Shown here: in pieces, positions 1,294 to 11,603 of the stretch
How the letters are laid out: the number at the start of each line of letters is the position of its first letter
Numbering within the stretch: position 1 is the first letter of the stretch
From: a virus
Direction: 5' to 3' (one strand)
DNA length: 20,917 nucleotides
Virus record (IMG/VR): IMGVR_UViG_3300032265_001463
Span: 1 to 20,917 of that record
Made by a program: the position numbers and the translations under genes
The notes under the pieces: generated by a model
Told to the model about the DNA's origin: nothing
The model's database searches: none
What the model saw: the letters and a program-made list of their open reading frames with translations, nothing else

Positions 1294-1300
1294 AACTAAT

Positions 1301-1329
1301 ACCTCCTATGATTATTTATCATAGGCGAT
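1301..1329 (-). promoter_or_regulatory. RNA hairpin masking the endonuclease ribosome binding site
   Basis: On the minus strand, CCTATGAT and ATCATAGG form a perfect 8-bp stem around the 5-base loop AAATA. The stem can extend by four more positions (one G-A mismatch, a C-G pair, a U-G wobble, an A-U pair). The complete stem covers all of the AGGAGGT Shine-Dalgarno sequence (plus-strand 1301-1307). Transcripts reading through from gene 55 would contain both arms and should be translated poorly. The arrangement matches the known control of T4 I-TevI and related phage endonuclease genes. Confidence 0.8.
1313..1320 (-). promoter_or_regulatory. Late promoter box GATAAATA for the endonuclease
   Basis: GATAAATA on the minus strand matches the T4 late box TATAAATA at 7 of 8 positions. 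It spans the hairpin loop and the first bases of its 5' arm. Counting the last A as -6 puts the start near base 1307, the first base of AGGAGGT. That transcript would lack the 5' arm, so the ribosome site would be free and the leader would be about 14 bases. Confidence 0.72.
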
Positions 1330-1349
1330 TGGCATTACATACTTATTAC

Positions 1350-2177: not shown

Positions 2178-2199
2178 TAGATGATTCCTCGTAAATTAC

Positions 2200-2228
2200 A
2201 TTATAAACTACGCACTTATTAAAGTCAA
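2200..2228 (-). promoter_or_regulatory. Host-type sigma70 promoter for gene 55
   Basis: Read on the minus strand, the -35 is TTGACT (plus 2223-2228, 5 of 6 consensus) and the -10 is TATAAT (plus 2200-2205, 6 of 6), separated by exactly 17 bp (2206-2222). The predicted start is near 2193, leaving a leader of about 16 bases that contains the GAGGAA ribosome site of gene 55. This fits early or middle expression by unmodified host polymerase. Confidence 0.8.
2204..2220 (+). repeat. Copy A of 17-bp upstream block of the late promoters
   Basis: TAAACTACGCACTTATT, seven bases upstream of the AATAAATA late box of gp48. It differs at one position from the block at 8106-8122, which has the same spacing to its own late box. 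Relative to a late start it covers about -37 to -21. On the other strand it overlaps the spacer of the gene 55 early promoter. Confidence 0.75.
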
Positions 2229-2235
2229 ATAAATA
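2228..2235 (+). promoter_or_regulatory. Late promoter box AATAAATA for the gp48 baseplate operon
   Basis: AATAAATA matches the T4 late box at 7 of 8 positions and the NATAAATA form described for T4-like cyanophages. With the last A as -6, the start falls near 2241, two bases before the AGGAGA ribosome site, so the leader would be about 14 bases. It probably drives gp48 onward. Confidence 0.78.
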
Positions 2236-2254
2236 GAGTATCAGGAGATATATT

Positions 2255-3271
2255 ATGAGTTTCGATTTAGGTGCTGGATTAACATCAACACTAACAAATA
2301 TTGGCAATGTGGTCACTGCCGGTACCAACGGATTTAATACAGCAAGCAATTTAAGTTCTGTATTTTCCGCTGCTCTTGAATCAGGTGACATTGCTAAGGC
2401 TATTCGTAGTATAAATTTACCAGCGTCTGGTGAAGCAATTGGCGATATACTAGGTGCTATTAGTGCTTTCACAGAAGATACCCATGCAAATGACTGGCGA
2501 GTCAGGTTAAGTCTTGCTAATTGGATTAGTTTCAAATCAAGCCCAGTATTAAAACCATTAAAAGACGCAGGCGGTTTAATATTTCCATATACTCCTCGAA
2601 TCAATATACACAGTGGAGCCAGTTATACACCAGTATCTCCAATTCATTCAAATTATACATTCCAAACATTTAAAAATAGTGACCCGGGTGCTATCATTAT
2701 CACAGCTCCTATGTATGTTTCGGATCCTACAGAAGGACTATACTGGATTGCCATGGTGCATTATTTAAGAAGTTTAACCAAAATGTTCGTAGGAAATGAT
2801 CCAAAGGCTGGCAATCCTCCACCTGTTATTATGTTGAATGGTTATGGAAATTATGTTTTTAAAAATGTTCCTGTAGTAGTTACTTCAATGGATATTACGC
2901 TAGATGATAAATCCGATTATATTGGAGTACCTGTTGTGGGAAGTGCAGCCGGCGGTGTTCAAGGAACCGCAGATGCAGTTGGAGGATTGTTAGATTCGCT
3001 TGGAGGTGCCTTTGGCAGTGCTCTTGGTGGATCAGTTGGATCGGCTACTTCTATTCTTAGTAGTTTAGCCGGTGGTGTTGGACAAGTTGCTGGATTGCTA
3101 GGTACGTTTGGAATTGGCGGTACGATGAGCGGTGGCATAAGCCATGTGCCAACAAAGAGCACTTTCACAGTAAAACTACAACCTATTTACAGTAGAAACA
3201 GTGCCCGTAAATTCAGCCTTGATAGGTTTGTCACTGGCGGATATCTTAATAATACTTTTGGATATGTTTAA
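2255..3271 (+). CDS. 48: Baseplate tail-tube cap gp48
   Basis: Baseplate protein that sits with gp54 on top of the hub and nucleates the tail tube. It has 338 residues (T4 gp48 is 364). The conserved core starts at NDWRVRLSL (W81) and goes on through GGLIFPYTP (106-114), YTFQTFKNSDPGAIIITAPMYV and YWIAMVHYLRSLTKMFVG, a combination typical of the cyanophage gp48 family. Two parts are low in complexity and rich in Gly, Ala, Ser and Leu: residues 1-75, and a glycine-rich insert at about 229-296, after which the core resumes with STFTVKLQPIYSRNSARKF. AGGAGA lies 6 bases ahead of the ATG, and a late box precedes it. It is the first gene of the rightward operon; gp53 follows after 2 bases. Confidence 0.88.
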   Translation: MSFDLGAGLTSTLTNIGNVVTAGTNGFNTASNLSSVFSAALESGDIAKAIRSINLPASGEAIGDILGAISAFTEDTHANDWRVRLSLANWISFKSSPVLKPLKDAGGLIFPYTPRINIHSGASYTPVSPIHSNYTFQTFKNSDPGAIIITAPMYVSDPTEGLYWIAMVHYLRSLTKMFVGNDPKAGNPPPVIMLNGYGNYVFKNVPVVVTSMDITLDDKSDYIGVPVVGSAAGGVQGTADAVGGLLDSLGGAFGSALGGSVGSATSILSSLAGGVGQVAGLLGTFGIGGTMSGGISHVPTKSTFTVKLQPIYSRNSARKFSLDRFVTGGYLNNTFGYV

Positions 3272-3273
3272 TT

Positions 3274-3576
3274 ATGGCTTCTAATTATAAAAATACCAGT
3301 CCCTGGTATGCTACACCTACAATTACAAATTATTTAGATGTATTAACAATACGACCTGTTAGTGCAGGAAAAGATGATTTCTTATATACTATTGAAAGTC
3401 AGTATACATATCGCCCAGATTTGCTGGCATTTGACTTATATAATGATGCTGCCTTGTGGTGGGTTTTTATACAACGTAATCTTGATGTGTTACAAGATCC
3501 AATTTTTGATTTTGTTCCAGGTAAAAAAATATATATTTGTAAAAATAGTAGTTTAAAAATAGCATTAGGTTTGTAA
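3274..3576 (+). CDS. 53: Baseplate wedge subunit gp53 (short form)
   Basis: Wedge protein that helps join wedges to the hub during baseplate assembly. It has 100 residues, about half of T4 gp53 (196), matching the short cyanophage-like form. Recognisable parts are the N-terminal SPWYATP, the RPDLLAFDLYNDAALWWVFIQRN segment and the C-terminal DPIFDFVPGKKIYI, a LysM-like fold ending as known for gp53. The ATG follows the gp48 stop after two bases and the next gene starts one base after its own stop. The ribosome site is weak (GGA further upstream), so translation is probably coupled to gp48. Confidence 0.88.
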   Translation: MASNYKNTSPWYATPTITNYLDVLTIRPVSAGKDDFLYTIESQYTYRPDLLAFDLYNDAALWWVFIQRNLDVLQDPIFDFVPGKKIYICKNSSLKIALGL

Positions 3577-3577
3577 G

Positions 3578-5815
3578 ATGGCTCTTTTAGATCAAGCAAC
3601 AACTCTAATAACCACTGTTAAAAATACGATTAGTAATGTAGGAATTGCCACAGGATTGTCATCTACATTTGACAGTGTCAGTGGGTTCCTTAATAGTTTA
3701 AACAAATATCTTAAAACACTGGAAGGTGTTAAACTTCCTCTAGCAAATCCGTTATTTGATTATGCTAGCTATACTTACGTATTAGGCATAGGTTGTTTGT
3801 CTGACCAAGAGGCCAATGCACCTGACGCAACTTATATGTCAGGTAGCCGCATTGACCTGCTTTGTAAATCAGCAAATACTGATTTTGATAACAGAGTGCA
3901 AACTGCATACGGAAAATTTGATTTTTTTATAGATAATCTTGTGTTGGAACAATCAATAGGATTTGAACATGATTCGAATTCTAACGTAACTGATATTAGT
4001 TTTAATATTACAGAACCTTATAGTATGGGTATGTTTTTTATAGCATTAGAAACATTAGCCAGACTAAAAGGACATAAGAACTGGCGTGATGCTACCTGGA
4101 CATTGACGATTGAATTTCGTGGAAATAAAGAAACAGGTATGATGGCTAATATACCCGGCACCTTTCGTTGCATTCCTTTTGTTATAACTGATATTGATAT
4201 GACGGTTGATAATAAAGGTGCAATTTATCAAATAGGAGCGATGCCAACTAGTCAGGCTGCGTTGGCAAATGAATATAAGAATTTTAAAACAGAAGTATCC
4301 ATTTCAGGAAAGTCTGTACAAGAGATTTTGCAAACCGGCCGAAACAGCTTAGAATCATATCTCAATAAACAAGCTATTGATGAAGCTAAACGACTTGGAT
4401 CCGATTCTGTTCCTGACGAATATATTATACTATTTCCAGAAGACTGGTCTTCTGCTTCTAGTAAATCAACCCCAACTAATGCCAGTGCAACCACAGATTT
4501 ATCAGTAACTGATAACGGTTTAAGAACTATATTAGGTGTTACTCGAGCTCCACCAACAACAAAAGGCGGCCGCGGCAATTATGTACAAGACGGAAGTAAA
4601 GTCAATTTTTTAGGCAAAGGCGTATTAGATGTTGATGCTAATAGAACTTCAACTCCGCCAACTGTAAAAAATATTTCGGCATATAAAAATGGTGGATTTG
4701 ACAAAAGTGCAATAACTGCAGGTAATGGTCCTACTGAGGGTAATTTTAAGTATCCTCAAGGTAGCGATATTCCCAATGCTATAAATCAAGTATTATTAAA
4801 AAGCGATTATGTTAGAGTAGCTCTTGGACCAGAGGCACTAACTGACGAAGGTTGGCGTAAGTGGTGGAGAATAGATTGCCAAGTGTATAATATTACAACG
4901 GATGCTAATTTGGCGACTAAGGGAGTAAAACCTAAAATTTATGTTTATCGAGTTATTCCTTATAATGTACATGGTAGTAGAGTGACTGCACCTAATGTCA
5001 AAGTTAAAGGATTTGATCGTTTAAAAGAAGAAGCCGTTAAAGAATATAATTATATCTATACTGGAAAAAATGCTGATATTCTAGATTTTAAAATTTACTT
5101 TGATAACGGATTTGTGACAGCAATGCTTGCAGACTCGTTTGCTAAAAGTTCTGATATTATCACAAGTACATCGCAGGGAGAAGGTGTCGAAGTCCAACCG
5201 CTTGACCCAGTTGGCAAAGGAAATCCTCCTGAAGATAAACCTGGAATAATACCAGGAATTGTCAAATTTGTTAAAACGTTAACTAACACTGACCGAAAAG
5301 GCGGCAGCGGGCCTGATAGTCCAGTAACTCGTGCCGCAAGACTATTTCACGATGCAATTACTAAGAGCCAAGGAGATATGATTGAATTGGATATGACAAT
5401 TATTGGAGATCCGTATTATATTGCACACAGTGGCATGGGGAATTATACCGGATCATCTACATCTAATAGCTCAAATTTATTAGATGATGGCAGTATAAAC
5501 TATCAAAATGGAGAAGTTGATATCGTTGTTAATTTTAGAACGCCAATTGATATCAACCAAGGTACTGGCTTGTATACATTTACTGGCTCAATAGACAGTG
5601 CTCCGGTTACTTCATGGAGCGGAATTTACCGACTAACAGAAGTTACTAGTACATTTAACGGCGGAGAATTTAAACAAAAATTAGGCGGATATAGACGTCC
5701 GTATCAGGAAGCTACCAATACAGATCCTGACTCGAAGGTATTTAATACTACCGGTACGCCAGTTCCTGCAACTTCGCCGGCCGCAGACCCAGACGATTAT
5801 TCACAAGGACCTTAA
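3578..5815 (+). CDS. Virion structural protein, probable baseplate hub (gp27-like role)
   Basis: A 745-residue protein between gp53 and gp5, resembling a conserved structural protein found at this place in T4-like cyanophages. The N-terminal part contains an IDNLVLEQSIGFEHD / ISFNITEPYSMGMFFIALE block followed by TWTLTIEFRGN. The C-terminal part has MIELDMTIIGDPYYIAHSG (GDP at 610-612) and W680-S-G-I-Y-RLTEVTSTFNGGEF then GYRRP. In contractile-tail hub proteins, an 'IxGDP' strand followed by a 'GxYxVxxVxHxF' strand is a common signature, so a gp27-like hub that carries the gp5 spike is my best reading. This is inference from position and strand pattern; T4 gp27 is only 391 residues. The middle (about 270-400) is Ser/Thr/Asn-rich and probably flexible. 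It starts one base after the gp53 stop. Confidence 0.6.
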   Translation: MALLDQATTLITTVKNTISNVGIATGLSSTFDSVSGFLNSLNKYLKTLEGVKLPLANPLFDYASYTYVLGIGCLSDQEANAPDATYMSGSRIDLLCKSANTDFDNRVQTAYGKFDFFIDNLVLEQSIGFEHDSNSNVTDISFNITEPYSMGMFFIALETLARLKGHKNWRDATWTLTIEFRGNKETGMMANIPGTFRCIPFVITDIDMTVDNKGAIYQIGAMPTSQAALANEYKNFKTEVSISGKSVQEILQTGRNSLESYLNKQAIDEAKRLGSDSVPDEYIILFPEDWSSASSKSTPTNASATTDLSVTDNGLRTILGVTRAPPTTKGGRGNYVQDGSKVNFLGKGVLDVDANRTSTPPTVKNISAYKNGGFDKSAITAGNGPTEGNFKYPQGSDIPNAINQVLLKSDYVRVALGPEALTDEGWRKWWRIDCQVYNITTDANLATKGVKPKIYVYRVIPYNVHGSRVTAPNVKVKGFDRLKEEAVKEYNYIYTGKNADILDFKIYFDNGFVTAMLADSFAKSSDIITSTSQGEGVEVQPLDPVGKGNPPEDKPGIIPGIVKFVKTLTNTDRKGGSGPDSPVTRAARLFHDAITKSQGDMIELDMTIIGDPYYIAHSGMGNYTGSSTSNSSNLLDDGSINYQNGEVDIVVNFRTPIDINQGTGLYTFTGSIDSAPVTSWSGIYRLTEVTSTFNGGEFKQKLGGYRRPYQEATNTDPDSKVFNTTGTPVPATSPAADPDDYSQGP

Positions 5816-5817
5816 TT

Positions 5818-7644
5818 ATGGCACAAGAAGATAACAGTTATTATAGTTCCGACATGCTGGAAAGTCCAAGACCCGGCCCGTTCCTTGCCAAAGTAATTGG
5901 ACATTTAGACAGCACATTTATGGGAATTTTAGAAGTACAAATATTACGTCCGGTTGGTGCAGGTACAGACTCATCTAAAACATTTCAAGCTAGATATATG
6001 AGTCCGTTTTATGGTGTAACCAGTTCTGATCATCTTGGCGGAGTGTCTAAAGATTCAAAGACTGACACCTATAATAATACACAAAAGTCTTATGGCATGT
6101 GGATGGTACCACCCGATGTTGGATCTTTAGTAATTGTTATTTTTATTGATGGAGCAGTAGATAAGGCTTTTTGGATAGGATGTGTGGCAGACGAAGGCAT
6201 GAATTTTATGCTACCTGGTCTTGCCGCCACTCAAAAAGTAGTTGAAGATGTTAAACCTGATAAAGCTGGTCGATACGGTAGAGTGCCTGTGGCAGAATAT
6301 AATAAAAAAGTTGATAATACTGCCGATCCAGATATTACACAAGGATTAAAACCTCAACACCCGTTTGCTGATGTATTAAAAACTCAAGGATTGTTGTTTG
6401 ATGATATCAGAGGAATTACATCTTCCAGTGCTAGACGAGAAGTTCCTAGTATGGTATTTGGAATTAGTACCCCAGGCCCAGTTGATAAACAAGACGGAGC
6501 ACAAAAAGGAAAAATTGGTAATTTAGACTATAGAATAGATGCATTTGTTAGTCGTCTTGGCGGAACAACATTTGTTATGGATGACGGTGATGATAGATAT
6601 CTACGTAAGACTACTGCTAGTGCAGGCCCGCCTGAGTATGCCAGTGTTGCCAACAATGAAACTGACGGTAAAGTTACATTACCACATAACGAACTGTTTA
6701 GAATTAGAACTAGAACTGGCCATCAAATCTTACTACACAACAGTGAAGATTTAATTTATATTGGTAACGCCCGCGGAACAAGTTGGATTGAATTAACTAG
6801 CGACGGCAAGATTGATATCTACGCCAACGATAGTATCAGTGTACATACTAAAAATGATTTGAATTTTTATGCAACTAGAGATATTAATATGGAAGCAGGC
6901 AGAAATATTAATATTAAAGCCAACAAAGAAATGCACACCCATGTGCTCAAAGATCATATTTTAATTGTTGATGAAAATCAAAAAATTCATGTAAAGAAGG
7001 ATGTTGATAAAACATACGAGCAAAAATATACACATCATGTTAAAAAAGATGTGAACAAATTATACGATCAAAACTACCTACAACATGTATTACAAAATGT
7101 AGATAAAGTATTTGACGGCAACTATCAGCATAAGGTAGTTGGAAATTTTGACTTTAATATTGCCGGACACAATTTTCAAACTTCCGGCGGAAATATGGAA
7201 ATTAAGGCGGCTAATACTACTATATCCGGCGGCAATATTAACTTAAATCCAACATCTCCTGCATCTACAGCAAGTAAACCAAGTGACGCTAGTCTTACTG
7301 CACTGAGTACAGCAAGTAAAAAAGGATTACCTCAACGATTAAAACTACATAAGTTATCAGTTGAAACTGGAAAGTACGATGAAACTCAAATTCCTCCAAC
7401 AATTATGCGTCGAGTTATTACAGCTGAACCATATGTATATCACGAAAATATAAATCCGGGTAAAGTTAAAACTGAAAAAACCGATAGAGATATTGACGGC
7501 CGATATGACGATACAGATGAAAATCAGCTTAGTAAGCAAAGTAATTTTAGCGAAACTATGTTAACACCTCCAGATTTGTGGCAAAATTATACTACCAGCA
7601 CAGATACATTTAAAGTAGATCCGCCACCAGCAACACAACAATAA
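5818..7644 (+). CDS. 5: Baseplate hub spike gp5-like, no lysozyme domain seen
   Basis: Central membrane-piercing spike protein, 608 residues. The N-terminal OB-fold (about 15-135) ends with YGMWMVPPDVGSLVIVIFID and FWIGCV, as in gp5/VgrG proteins. A middle part (about 225-335) has RLGGTTFVMDDGDDR and RTRTGHQILLHNSEDLIYIG, leading into the spike. From residue 338 to about 478 there are 8-residue beta-helix repeats (for example NDLNFYAT, RDINMEAG, RNINIKAN), including four clean 16-residue repeats at 391-454. T4 gp5 has a lysozyme domain between OB-fold and helix; no lysozyme-like E-G-(9)-D pattern is visible here. A 130-residue tail follows the helix, with MRRVITAEPYVYHENINP at 530-547, a motif I associate with cyanophage gp5 proteins. 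AAGGA lies 9 bases before the ATG. Confidence 0.85.
   Translation: MAQEDNSYYSSDMLESPRPGPFLAKVIGHLDSTFMGILEVQILRPVGAGTDSSKTFQARYMSPFYGVTSSDHLGGVSKDSKTDTYNNTQKSYGMWMVPPDVGSLVIVIFIDGAVDKAFWIGCVADEGMNFMLPGLAATQKVVEDVKPDKAGRYGRVPVAEYNKKVDNTADPDITQGLKPQHPFADVLKTQGLLFDDIRGITSSSARREVPSMVFGISTPGPVDKQDGAQKGKIGNLDYRIDAFVSRLGGTTFVMDDGDDRYLRKTTASAGPPEYASVANNETDGKVTLPHNELFRIRTRTGHQILLHNSEDLIYIGNARGTSWIELTSDGKIDIYANDSISVHTKNDLNFYATRDINMEAGRNINIKANKEMHTHVLKDHILIVDENQKIHVKKDVDKTYEQKYTHHVKKDVNKLYDQNYLQHVLQNVDKVFDGNYQHKVVGNFDFNIAGHNFQTSGGNMEIKAANTTISGGNINLNPTSPASTASKPSDASLTALSTASKKGLPQRLKLHKLSVETGKYDETQIPPTIMRRVITAEPYVYHENINPGKVKTEKTDRDIDGRYDDTDENQLSKQSNFSETMLTPPDLWQNYTTSTDTFKVDPPPATQQ
6988..7179 (+). repeat. 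Four 16-residue beta-helix repeats in gp5
   Basis: Residues 391-406, 407-422, 423-438 and 439-454 align without gaps on the pattern H-V-K-K-D-V-(D/N)-K-x-(Y/F)-(E/D)-x-x-Y; the fourth is more divergent. Sixteen is twice the 8-residue period of the T4 gp5 spike helix, so each repeat probably forms two strands. Confidence 0.8.
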
Positions 7645-7664
7645 CAAGAGGAGTCAAGAACATA

Positions 7665-8108
7665 ATGAGCTCAAATGCTAATCTATATAAAAAAATAACA
7701 TTACCAGCGGTCAATCATACGGAATCTATCCGACCAAAGATGTATAAAGGGTTTAGTACTGTTAATACCAATACTGAAAACTATAATCTTTATGACTTTG
7801 AATTGATCAAACAGGACTTGTTTAACCACTTTTACACACGTCAGGGCGAACGATTAATGCAACCAGGATTTGGAACAGTAATATGGGACTTGTTGTTTGA
7901 GCCATTAACTCCTGAAATAAAAGAAATAATATTAAAAAATGTTAACACCATTATTAATTATGATCCTCGAATTAAAGCCGAAAATGTTGTGGTAACCGGA
8001 TACGATCAAGGTATACAGATTCAATGTACACTAACCTTTCTTGCGTACAACATTCAACAAACCCTGCAATTAAGATTTGATCAAACTAATGGCTTACTGG
8101 CACAATAA
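7665..8108 (+). CDS. 25: Baseplate wedge subunit gp25
   Basis: Wedge protein of 147 residues (T4 gp25 is 132), a family shared with phage P2 gpW and TssE of type VI secretion. It forms the sheath-initiating contact of the baseplate wedge. Recognisable parts are YDFELIKQDLFNHFYTRQGERLMQPGFG, then TVIWDLLFEPLTPE, IINYDPRI and the final strands ending QQTLQLRFDQ. The family's conserved Glu-Pro pair is present (FEPL). About 35 residues precede the core. The start is supported by AGGAG about 11 bases upstream in the 20-base gap after gp5. The gene ends immediately before the second copy of the late promoter block. Confidence 0.93.
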   Translation: MSSNANLYKKITLPAVNHTESIRPKMYKGFSTVNTNTENYNLYDFELIKQDLFNHFYTRQGERLMQPGFGTVIWDLLFEPLTPEIKEIILKNVNTIINYDPRIKAENVVVTGYDQGIQIQCTLTFLAYNIQQTLQLRFDQTNGLLAQ

Positions 8109-8122
8109 ACTACGTACTTATT
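8106..8122 (+). repeat. Copy B of 17-bp upstream block of the late promoters
   Basis: TAAACTACGTACTTATT, identical to the block at 2204-2220 at 16 of 17 positions and again exactly seven bases before AATAAATA. Its first three bases are the stop codon of gp25. Confidence 0.75.
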
Positions 8123-8129
8123 GATATAA

Positions 8130-8137
8130 AATAAATA
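8130..8137 (+). promoter_or_regulatory. Late promoter box AATAAATA for gp6
   Basis: Matches the T4 late box at 7 of 8 positions. The predicted start is near 8143, next to the TAGGAT ribosome site, giving a leader of about 11 bases. It probably adds transcription of gp6 and the giant gene inside the baseplate operon. Confidence 0.76.
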
Positions 8138-8153
8138 CACGATAGGATACATC

Positions 8154-11100
8154 ATGAGTTCAACTGATAGACAAAATAATTTATTAATTAGCGAAGACTG
8201 GAAGAAAATTTATCAGAGCTTCCGCAATGCAGATTTTCAAAGTTATGACTTTGAAAACTTACGCAGAACTATGATTACCTATTTGCGTACAAATTATCCT
8301 GAAGATTTTAACGATTATATTGAGTCTAGCGAATACCTTGCCCTAGTGGATCTTATTGCATTCTTGGGCCAGAGCATAGCTTTCCGTGTTGACTTAAATG
8401 CCCGTGAAAACTTTTTAGAACTAGCAGAGCGACGTGACAGTGTACTGCGATTAGCCCGGTTAATTAGCTATAATGCTAAACGTAATATTCCTGCTAGCGG
8501 CTTATTAAAATTTAATACAGTACGTACTACCGAAACGGTTGTTGACAGCAATGGAAGAAATTTAGCAGGACAGATTATTACCTGGAACGATCCAGCCAAT
8601 GCATACTGGTACGATCAGTTTATCAAAGTTTTAAATGCCTCAATGAGTTCTACACAGCAGTTTGGAAACCCTAGCGATAAGGCAACTATATACGGAATAC
8701 CAACTAGTCAGTACCGATTCCAAGGTGCTAATACAGACATTCCGATTTATACTTTTTCTAAATCGGTGGCTGGCAGAAATATGAATTTTGAAATTACCAG
8801 TACAACCTTTGCTGGCCAAGACTATGTTTACGAAGAAGCTCCTAAAATTGGCAATCACCCAGCTTATATCTATAAAGAAGATGGCCACGGAGCAAGTAGC
8901 CCAGGTACAGGATTCTTTTTTAATTTTACACAAGGCACGCTGAGTACAGGTACATTTACCATTACACAACCTAGTACTAACGAATCTGTTGATATCGCAA
9001 CGCAAAATATTAATAATAATGATGTTTGGTTATATCGTTTAAATCAGAATGGTGCCGAGTCAGAATTGTGGACACAAATCTCAAGCCTTAAAGGTAATAA
9101 TGTAATTTATAATAGTCTTAATAAAAGTATTAGGAACATATATTCGGTAATTACCAGAGCCGCCGATACCGTTAGTATTGCATTTAGTGATGGTACTTTT
9201 GGAAATTTACCACTAGGTACTTTTAGAACATACTATCGAACTAGTAATGGTCTTAGTTATGTAATTAATCCTGCAGATATACGAAATATTTCTATTTCAA
9301 TTCCTTACATTTCAAAAAAGAACCAAACTGAAACATTGACGATTACATTGAATCTTCCTACATCAATTTCTAATTCAGAAATAGCTGAAACCAATGCATC
9401 AATTAAAGCAAATGCACCAGCAACCTATTATACACAAAATAGAATGATTACGGCCGAAGATTATAATATTAGTCCTTTGGCAGTTAGTCAGCAAGTTGCA
9501 AAAATTAAAGCAGTTAATAGAACCGCCAGCGGAATAAGTCGATATTTTGACCTTAAGGATCCTACTGGAAAATATAGTTCTACAAATTTATATGCAAACG
9601 ACGGAGTGTTATATCAAGACTCTTATGTATTATATACAAAATTTAATTATGTAACTAAAACAGATATAGAAGGTATTATAAAAAATCTTGTATATGATAT
9701 TATCAAAAACGCAGATTTAAGAAATTTTTATTATTCTAATAACATTACTTTTTTATCTACTAGTCTTACTATTGCATGGTATAAGAAAAGTACAGATAGC
9801 AATTCTTCTACAGGCTATATTGGTGATATAGCAGACAATGTTGCATATCCGGTGGGATCATATACATCTACTGATTTAAAATATCTTACTCCTGGTGCAT
9901 TAATTAAATTTTTGCCACCAGACGGCAAGTATTTTGATTCAACAAATGGTAATGCAATAACACCTATCCCTCTGGGATCTACTGTTGCTAATAAACCAGG
10001 TGCATTATCTTATCTTTGGGCCGAAGTAATTTTGGTTAATAGTGCTGGTACTGATTTATCACAAACTGATGGCCCTATAACTTTAAATCAAATTATTCCG
10101 TCAACTGCAAAAATTATTCAGATTATTCCTAAATTAGCCACATCGTTAAGCACTTCGGTAATTGCAACAATGATTGATTTAATCTATTCTAATAGACCGT
10201 TTGGATTAAGATATAACACGGTTGTGCAGTCTTGGCAGTTAGTATTTGAAAATAATTTAGATCAGGTTAGTGCGTTTAGTTTAAGCAAACAGGGAAACAA
10301 TACTAATAAAAAACAAGATTCTAGCTGGATATTAATGTTTACCACAGATAACGAGTATTATACTATAACTACTCGCCTTCTGAGATATGTATTTGAAAGC
10401 GATAAAGAAACCAGATTTTATTTTGATGATAATATACGGATTTACGATAACACTTCTAATTCAGTTGTTGGTGATTCAGTTAATATTTTAAGTATTAATA
10501 CTAAACCTTCGAGTACTATGCCATTTACGGCAGACCTAGTGTGGGATGTTATTTCCTCGTATAGCGGAATAGACGGATATATTGATAATAAAAAATTAGT
10601 AGTATCTTTTCAAGACAGCGATAATAACGGAGTGGTAGACAATCCACAGATGTTTTTAGATATTGTTTCTCCAAACGGAGTTGATTTAACAGAATATATT
10701 ATACAAGAAAGATATTCAATATCAGACGGCCAGGAAGATTACAGATATATTAATAATGATACAAACAAGATACTAATCTTAAGTTCGCAACCTAAATCTT
10801 TTGTGGGATATGCTGATGGCCAGTATTTTTATTTTGCAGATACTGGAGTTGTAAAAGTATACAATACCAAACTTGGAATTCAACCAACTCTTGATTATAA
10901 AGTTTATCCAGGTCGCGATAAATTAAAATTTCAATATACTCATAGTGCAGATTACGAATCAAGAATTGATCCAGGTTCAAGTAATATTATTGATATCTAT
11001 GTTTTAACTAAATCATATGATACACAATTTAGACAGTGGATTGATGGTGCTACTTCAAGTCAACCACGACCCCCAAGTTCATCTGAATTATATAATATAA

Positions 11101-11603
11101 TAGGCCCGTCATTGGGATTAATTAAATCTATTAGTGATGAAATTGTTTATCATCCTGTAAAATATAAAATTTTATTTGGTAGTATTGCAACAGCAGATGT
11201 TCAAGCTAGTTTTAAAATAAGTAAGAATGTTGATTCCGTAGTGTCTGATAATGATATTAAATCAAGAGTAATCACAGCAATTAATCAGTTTTTTACTTTA
11301 GACAATTGGAACTTTGGTGATATATTTTATTTTACAGAACTATCTACGTATGTAATGAATCAGCTTGCTCCTGATATTACAAATTTTATTATTGTTCCAA
11401 GGCAAGCCGGATCGTATTTTGGAAGTTTATTTGAAATAAAATGCCCAAGCGACCAGATTTTTATCAATGGTGCAACAGTTTCTGATATAGAAATAATTTC
11501 AGGAATCACGTCAGGTAATATTAAATCAGTTACAGGCGATGCATTAGGCTCAATTTATACACAAAACATAACCAGTTCAAATTACGGAGCATCAAATGGC
11601 TGA
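8154..11603 (+). CDS. 6: Baseplate wedge subunit gp6, long form
   Basis: Wedge protein whose dimers form the continuous inner ring of the T4 baseplate. The N-terminus is clearly gp6: LLISEDWKKIYQSFRNADF, LVDLIAFLGQSIAFRVDLNA, RENFLELAERRDSVLRLARL. The C-terminal part (about 990-1149), with VYHPVKYKILFGSI and DNWNFGDIFYFTELSTYV, also fits. At 1149 residues it is much longer than T4 gp6 (660); the extra length lies in the middle and includes RPFGLRYNTVVQSWQLVFEN and a likely calcium loop D821-S-D-N-N-G-V-V-D829. AGGA lies 6 bases before the ATG, with its own late box and upstream block. The last 8 bases overlap the start of the next gene (ATGGCTGA). Confidence 0.92.
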   Translation: MSSTDRQNNLLISEDWKKIYQSFRNADFQSYDFENLRRTMITYLRTNYPEDFNDYIESSEYLALVDLIAFLGQSIAFRVDLNARENFLELAERRDSVLRLARLISYNAKRNIPASGLLKFNTVRTTETVVDSNGRNLAGQIITWNDPANAYWYDQFIKVLNASMSSTQQFGNPSDKATIYGIPTSQYRFQGANTDIPIYTFSKSVAGRNMNFEITSTTFAGQDYVYEEAPKIGNHPAYIYKEDGHGASSPGTGFFFNFTQGTLSTGTFTITQPSTNESVDIATQNINNNDVWLYRLNQNGAESELWTQISSLKGNNVIYNSLNKSIRNIYSVITRAADTVSIAFSDGTFGNLPLGTFRTYYRTSNGLSYVINPADIRNISISIPYISKKNQTETLTITLNLPTSISNSEIAETNASIKANAPATYYTQNRMITAEDYNISPLAVSQQVAKIKAVNRTASGISRYFDLKDPTGKYSSTNLYANDGVLYQDSYVLYTKFNYVTKTDIEGIIKNLVYDIIKNADLRNFYYSNNITFLSTSLTIAWYKKSTDSNSSTGYIGDIADNVAYPVGSYTSTDLKYLTPGALIKFLPPDGKYFDSTNGNAITPIPLGSTVANKPGALSYLWAEVILVNSAGTDLSQTDGPITLNQIIPSTAKIIQIIPKLATSLSTSVIATMIDLIYSNRPFGLRYNTVVQSWQLVFENNLDQVSAFSLSKQGNNTNKKQDSSWILMFTTDNEYYTITTRLLRYVFESDKETRFYFDDNIRIYDNTSNSVVGDSVNILSINTKPSSTMPFTADLVWDVISSYSGIDGYIDNKKLVVSFQDSDNNGVVDNPQMFLDIVSPNGVDLTEYIIQERYSISDGQEDYRYINNDTNKILILSSQPKSFVGYADGQYFYFADTGVVKVYNTKLGIQPTLDYKVYPGRDKLKFQYTHSADYESRIDPGSSNIIDIYVLTKSYDTQFRQWIDGATSSQPRPPSSSELYNIIGPSLGLIKSISDEIVYHPVKYKILFGSIATADVQASFKISKNVDSVVSDNDIKSRVITAINQFFTLDNWNFGDIFYFTELSTYVMNQLAPDITNFIIVPRQAGSYFGSLFEIKCPSDQIFINGATVSDIEIISGITSGNIKSVTGDALGSIYTQNITSSNYGASNG

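Follow-up and report, generated by a model that had tools for sequence, protein, structure and literature searches.

Interlocked divergent early and late promoters at the late sigma factor gene of a T4-related phage group: a possible early-to-late switch

At PR and PRM of phage lambda, polymerases with the same sigma factor compete for divergent, overlapping promoters with a dyad operator between them, and the repressor is known. The textbook example of a promoter without an upstream element comes from T4 late transcription, and the MotA box of T4 is a non-palindromic activator site, centred at -30, that works with sigma-70. The MotA consensus has been published (PMC1524935). T4 late promoters have no upstream or -35 element and no sequence conservation in that region, where gp33 makes backbone contact only (PMC2988020, PMC7892883). 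Overlapping early and late promoters have been described in RB49 and S-PM2, where they serve as “middle” promoters (PMC2984593). For CBB/GAP32, the section on transcription describes an RpoD promoter, Porf_244, upstream of gp55, with a TATA -10 and a TGAAACG -35, and this section mentions no late promoter overlapping that of gp55 (PMC5259590). A literature search for gp55 autoregulation or a divergent overlap of early and late promoters, with most subscription journals outside its range, returned nothing specific.

Gene 55 and the divergent baseplate operon

The window, the stretch of DNA analysed here, is a whole IMG/VR record of 20.9 kb, and no near match to it was found among sequenced phage records. 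Its leftward genes are gp55, a homing endonuclease and gp47, and its rightward baseplate operon encodes a structural protein, a gp53-like wedge, a further structural protein, a gp5-like hub, a gp25-like wedge and a gp6-like wedge (Table 1).

The leftward ORF 1350-2177 is securely a T4-type gp55 on the basis of PHROG, sequence profile and predicted fold. In addition to its PHROG matches (12791 and 234), a profile search found T4 gp55 in PDB 7d7c (E=1.4e-9, residues 166-242), and the best match of its AlphaFold model was 7d7c_F, with an rmsd of 1.4 over 89 columns. The first-pass annotation, made from the letters, had already named this gene a late sigma factor, and the name is confirmed. The protein has 275 aa, compared with 185 aa in T4 gp55, and its C-terminal end is ...GEHAAAVKRFDEGAE; in the model comparison, the extra N-terminal half showed no match to sigma region 4. 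The same annotation had called the divergent ORF 2255-3271 gp48. PHROG 12050 identifies it as a virion structural protein; the name gp48 was not upheld, as a profile of the ORF searched against the PDB matched no T4 gp48 or gp54 chain.

Table 1 Features of the gene 55 locus and of the gene 6 promoter in the window.
Feature	Position	Strand	Basis or remark
Gene 55, T4-type late sigma factor, 275 aa	1350..2177	-	PHROG 12791 E=6.9e-72; PHROG 234 E=1.1e-24
Shine-Dalgarno GAGGA, gene 55	2186..2190	-	read from sequence
Expected early start, gene 55	2193	-	from -10 position (7 nt past -10)
Early promoter -10, TATAAT	2200..2205	-	
Imperfect 18-bp dyad ATAAACTACGCACTTATT	2203..2220	.	early-promoter spacer; ~-38 to -21 of late promoter
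Early promoter -35, TTGACT	2223..2228	-	
Late box AATAAATA ([AC]TAAATA in relatives)	2228..2235	+	alignment of relatives; depletion elsewhere in window
Expected late start	2241	+	T4 geometry, box spans -13 to -6 (PMC1524935)
Shine-Dalgarno AGGAG, divergent structural gene	2243..2247	+	read from sequence
Divergent late operon, first gene, virion structural protein	2255..3271	+	PHROG 12050 E=6.6e-41
Later operon genes: gp53-like wedge, structural protein, gp5-like hub, gp25-like wedge	3274..8108	+	
Dyad, second copy, upstream of gene 6	8105..8122	.	no sigma-70 hexamers
Gene 6 late box AATAAATA	8130..8137	+	
Gene 6-like baseplate wedge subunit	8154..11603	+	PHROG 10646 E=7.7e-290

The homing endonuclease (ORF 637-1293; TIGR01453 and GIY-YIG/NUMOD matches) lies between gp55 and gp47 in the window and in only one of ~80 relatives (L027, 89% identical); in the other relatives, gp47 directly follows gp55. 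The endonuclease gene appears to be a recent insertion into the gp55 operon. Its start region (1295-1330, minus strand) is predicted to form a stable hairpin, CCTATGAT-AAATA-ATCATAGG (-15.4 kcal/mol, z -4.2), in which the AGGAGG ribosome site is paired and a GATAAATA late box is contained. This anatomy is that of T4 I-TevI, mobE and segB, with a silent early read-through and a translated late transcript.

Interlocked promoters and their conservation

The minus-strand sequence TTGACT-17-TATAAT ahead of gene 55 is the sole site in the first 6 kb that agrees with the sigma-70 consensus (TTGACA/TATAAT, spacer of 16-18 nt) at 11 of 12 positions, and an equally good minus-strand site appeared in the 77-bp intergenic region in only 0.4% of shuffles. 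Such sites abound in the relative G002 (IMGVR_UViG_3300032285_001268), which has 37 copies of TTGACA-17-TATAAT versus 3 in a shuffle; 21 of the 37 are clustered at 25-39 kb, many of them directly ahead of a AAGGAGCGAAC ribosome site and an ATG. Because of this excess and clustering, the phage group appears to have a real early promoter class, and the gp55 promoter appears to belong to it.

On the plus strand, the late box stands ahead of a structural gene and agrees both with NATAAATA, the late motif of S-PM2 (PMC2984593), and with CTAAATA, that of Aeh1 (PMC2984593, PMC1524935). Of 15 isomeric hexamers, TAAATA showed the strongest depletion in the window (observed/expected 0.46; next lowest 0.88), with 21 copies seen in its whole length versus 46 expected from a Markov model and 55 from shuffles, a depletion that fits an active late signal. 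A second divergent gap, upstream of a 274-aa gene, sets late against late, with boxes on the two strands separated by about 20 bp (contigs G001, 72048/72070; G002, 124814/124837; G003, 51025; G004, 87898).

At gene 55 the two promoters are interlocked. The late box shares base 2228 with the early -35, which is itself positioned between the two elements of the late promoter, the box and a dyad that falls in the early spacer. By standard spacing, the expected leftward and rightward starts are ~48 bp apart, so polymerase footprints (~-55 to +20) would overlap almost wholly, as in overlapping polymerase sites of the PR/PRM type. Given this geometry and the established footprints, the two polymerases probably cannot be bound together, and only one promoter would be usable at a time. 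A divergent gap of 77 bp would by itself impose some overlap on two promoters, whatever their function. The near-consensus host-type promoter, the late box and their divergent, interlocked placement had all been proposed in the first-pass annotation, and both the coordinates and the arrangement were borne out, the latter in relatives as well.

Eighty close relatives, which are non-independent samples, were fetched from IMG/VR. A divergent structural gene was found at about the same distance in nearly all whose contig reaches far enough, and the core was conserved in all 66 distinct alignable relatives (counts here and below are of distinct sequences: 66 aligned relatives, 38 unique cores and 41 gene-6 promoters). 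The alignment was anchored on the TAAATA late box, so the invariance of the box arises by construction and is no independent evidence; in the 66 sequences so anchored, ATTATA at -30 to -25 and GTCAA at -6 to -2 were nearly invariant. The 36-bp core contained no indel and had a mean pairwise identity of 88%, versus 50% at gp55 third codon positions, though its distances to the two start codons vary (14-26 and 19-25 nt). The intergenic region is similarly short in relatives. All 38 unique cores kept an early promoter with 10-12 of 12 consensus positions, the hexamer pairs being TTGACT/TATAAT (28), TTGACA/TATAAT (6), TTGACT/TATACT (2), TTGACT/TATTAT (1) and TTGATT/TATAAT (1). The -10 was accordingly TATAAT, TATACT or TATTAT in 38/38, and the -35 was TTGACT or TTGACA in 37/38, with TTGATT in the remaining one.

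The late promoter of gene 6 served as a comparison. Its 41 distinct sequences had the block (-27 to -10 on the same TAAATA anchor) and the box at the same spacing, with no conserved ATTATA or GTCAA positions. Since ATTATA and GTCAA are conserved at gp55 only and the block at both promoters, the sigma-70 hexamers can be assigned to gene 55, and the block is a feature of late promoters. Judged from these alignments, the arrangement is under strong selection in the relatives, and its occurrence is far beyond chance.

In more distant phages, the divergent order of gp55 and a structural gene was found in PA5oct, RaK2, 121Q, GAP32, Vibrio 2.275 and SCTP-2; the two genes are separated by a nucleotidyltransferase gene in Atu_ph07 and Phosso. 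The gp55 TATAAT of RaK2/121Q/GAP32-type phages lies 27-29 nt from the divergent late box, compared with 24 nt in the window, and the sequence between the -10 and the late box differs from that of the window group. In PA5oct-type phages, tens of additional bases separate the late box from the gp55 -35. A search of IMG/VR for relatives of the Vibrio phage 2.275 gp55 found none. On this distribution, the back-to-back pair appears to be old, and the tight interlocking, seen in two of three groups, is not universal. CBB falls into the RaK2/121Q/GAP32 group. As far as the published section on the CBB/GAP32 promoter describes it, CBB/GAP32 and the window both have a host-like promoter directly before gp55, the -35 being TGAAACG in the former and TTGACT in the latter.

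A palindromic block at three late tail promoters

The first-pass annotation had placed an upstream block of the late promoter in the early spacer. This position is right, but the earlier reading had missed that the block is an imperfect 18-bp palindrome common to three late tail promoters. The block, AACTACGCACTTATT, falls within the spacer of 17 nt and has an exact repeat at 8108-8137, upstream of gene 6; two such matches occurred in 0/100 shuffles. The third promoter with the dyad is that of the tail-tube protein gene (PHROG 13438), where the palindromes are near-perfect (e.g. ATTAACTACGTAGTTAAT) and one base nearer to the late box. In all three promoter sets the same centre had the highest dyad symmetry of 27 tested (6.1, 5.0 and 5.8 of 9 pairs), with a close runner-up at gene 6 (4.8); the window's own copy is weak, at 5 of 9 pairs. 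Relative to the expected late starts this centre is at ~-30, and relative to the expected gp55 start at ~-18; its distance from TAAATA is 18-19 nt in three unrelated promoters.

A symmetric weight matrix was built from the tail-tube sites and run on four contigs of 140-185 kb. The three known loci scored at or near the top, and with the same threshold shuffles yielded about one site in each contig; in G003 the copies at the tail-tube gene and gene 6 are weak (14-15 of 27). The dyad thus recurs at two other late tail promoters, those of baseplate gene 6 and the tail tube, and essentially nowhere else. Two other assignments of the block were rejected. It is not part of a general late-promoter consensus, as most of the boxes in four contigs lack it, and it is probably not a sigma -35 element read by gp55, whose model has only a T4-like core and no region 4 match. 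A palindrome that most late promoters lack points to a separate dimeric factor more than to gp55 itself, and we take the dyad to be, most probably, the binding site of a putative dimeric, sequence-specific factor on the three late tail promoters.

Dyad-like TATGCGTAC motifs also immediately follow the late box of two genes, a very conserved one of 94 aa (MSRPKP...) and one of 159 aa (G001, 120649 and 121418; G002, 179270 and 178500; G003, 103207; G004, 138557, minus strand). The 94-aa protein had no family match in PHROG. In the 25-39 kb cluster of G002, several promoters share the spacer end CTAAGTGCGC, which is similar to half of the dyad.

Proposed switch, alternatives and known systems

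We propose that the conserved interlocked pair is a built-in early-to-late switch that places gp55 under negative feedback, a reading to which we give about an even chance. Early in infection, host sigma-70 polymerase would transcribe gene 55 and gene 47 leftward from TTGACT-17-TATAAT; after gp55 has been made, gp55-polymerase would transcribe the baseplate genes rightward from AATAAATA. With the late box abutting the early -35 and the dyad in the early spacer, the two polymerases would exclude each other. A putative dimeric factor on the dyad may assist the late tail promoters (divergent operon, gene 6 and tail tube) from ~-30, and its occupation of the dyad at gene 55 would also close the gene 55 promoter. 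The first-pass annotation had already read the locus as such a switch, a reading that finds partial support here. The feedback role fits the arrangement; that gp55 would be repressed in vivo, in which direction and when, is our inference from it. More tentative, and well short of an even chance, is the specific proposal that the factor is a phage-encoded dimer binding the ATTAACTAC-GTAGTTAAT dyad at -30 in a tail regulon of three promoters and that, with gp55-polymerase, it closes the early promoter of gene 55. Several points stand against the switch: early promoters may be shut off globally, making local exclusion redundant, the PA5oct-type late box is farther off, the window dyad has only 5 of 9 pairs, and the 77-bp gap forces overlap.

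One alternative is that both promoters are real and overlap only because the divergent gap is ~80 bp, with no regulatory role for the overlap. We regard such compaction as unlikely. It would explain why the region is short in the window and in relatives, and the separated promoters of PA5oct-type phages mean that the tight form is dispensable; yet the core lacks indels even though the start-codon distances vary, and RaK2/GAP32-type phages keep a similar spacing despite the changed intervening sequence. Core rigidity is only moderate evidence against compaction, because interlocked elements are rigid anyway. That the sigma-70 promoter is instead a chance by-product of an AT-rich late motif might be entertained because weak sigma-70-like sites are common in AT-rich sequence (39 found versus 24 expected). 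The comparison with the gene-6 promoter, which has the same block, rules against this: the hexamer positions are free there and invariant at gp55, and variants stay within functional hexamers (TTGACA, TATACT, TATTAT), making the by-product explanation very improbable.

The exclusion might also run in the reverse direction, with holoenzyme on the strong early promoter keeping the late promoter shut and delaying the baseplate genes until sigma-70 activity drops. All relatives have a near-consensus early promoter, and gp55-polymerase, whose basal binding in T4 is weak before promoter opening (PMC2988020), would lose the early competition. However, the gene-6 promoter has the dyad and late box without a sigma-70 promoter, which argues against a general need for such a block, and we consider this reverse order unlikely, though compatible with the feedback switch. 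We are likewise doubtful that the dyad is no activator site and serves as an operator at which a phage or host repressor holds the three tail promoters and gene 55 off. Repressors classically bind over a sigma-70 spacer, where this imperfect palindrome sits. The conserved 94-aa gene has weaker copies of the motif just past its late box, and in T4 the A/T-rich sites bound by DsbA overlap two late promoters (PMC2988020). Against an operator, which would tolerate changes in spacing, the fixed 18-19 nt from centre to TAAATA in three unrelated promoters suits an activator that contacts polymerase.

If the feedback switch with its dyad-bound factor is correct, T4-type late promoters would have their first upstream element in the dyad, and one site would switch tail assembly on and synthesis of the late sigma factor off. 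A dyad at -30 in a subset of late promoters of a large, mostly uncultured T4-related group raises the possibility that late genes are sub-regulated by a sequence-specific factor. The interlocked pair at gene 55 would give the late sigma factor a simple feedback that can be tested, and its outline is kept across jumbo phages that can be grown on laboratory hosts.

Compared with the described systems, the locus shares with T4 a gp55 with a sigma region 2 fold, a TATAAATA-like box placed roughly one turn ahead of the start, and late tail genes. Unlike T4 late promoters, which have no conserved upstream element, the three tail promoters here have an 18-bp dyad at ~-30; to judge from these features, they probably work like T4 late promoters, with a variant architecture. 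As in the middle promoters of RB49 and S-PM2, early and late elements are combined at one gene, but there both signals are described as serving the same gene, whereas here the transcripts are divergent and one of them encodes the late sigma factor. The site centred at -30 recalls the middle promoters of T4 bound by MotA, from which it differs in being a palindrome and in having the late box as its -10 element. The locus resembles lambda PR/PRM in its back-to-back promoters with a dyad between them, and differs from it in the use of two different sigma factors, in a dyad-binding factor that is putative, and in its place in a lytic cascade.
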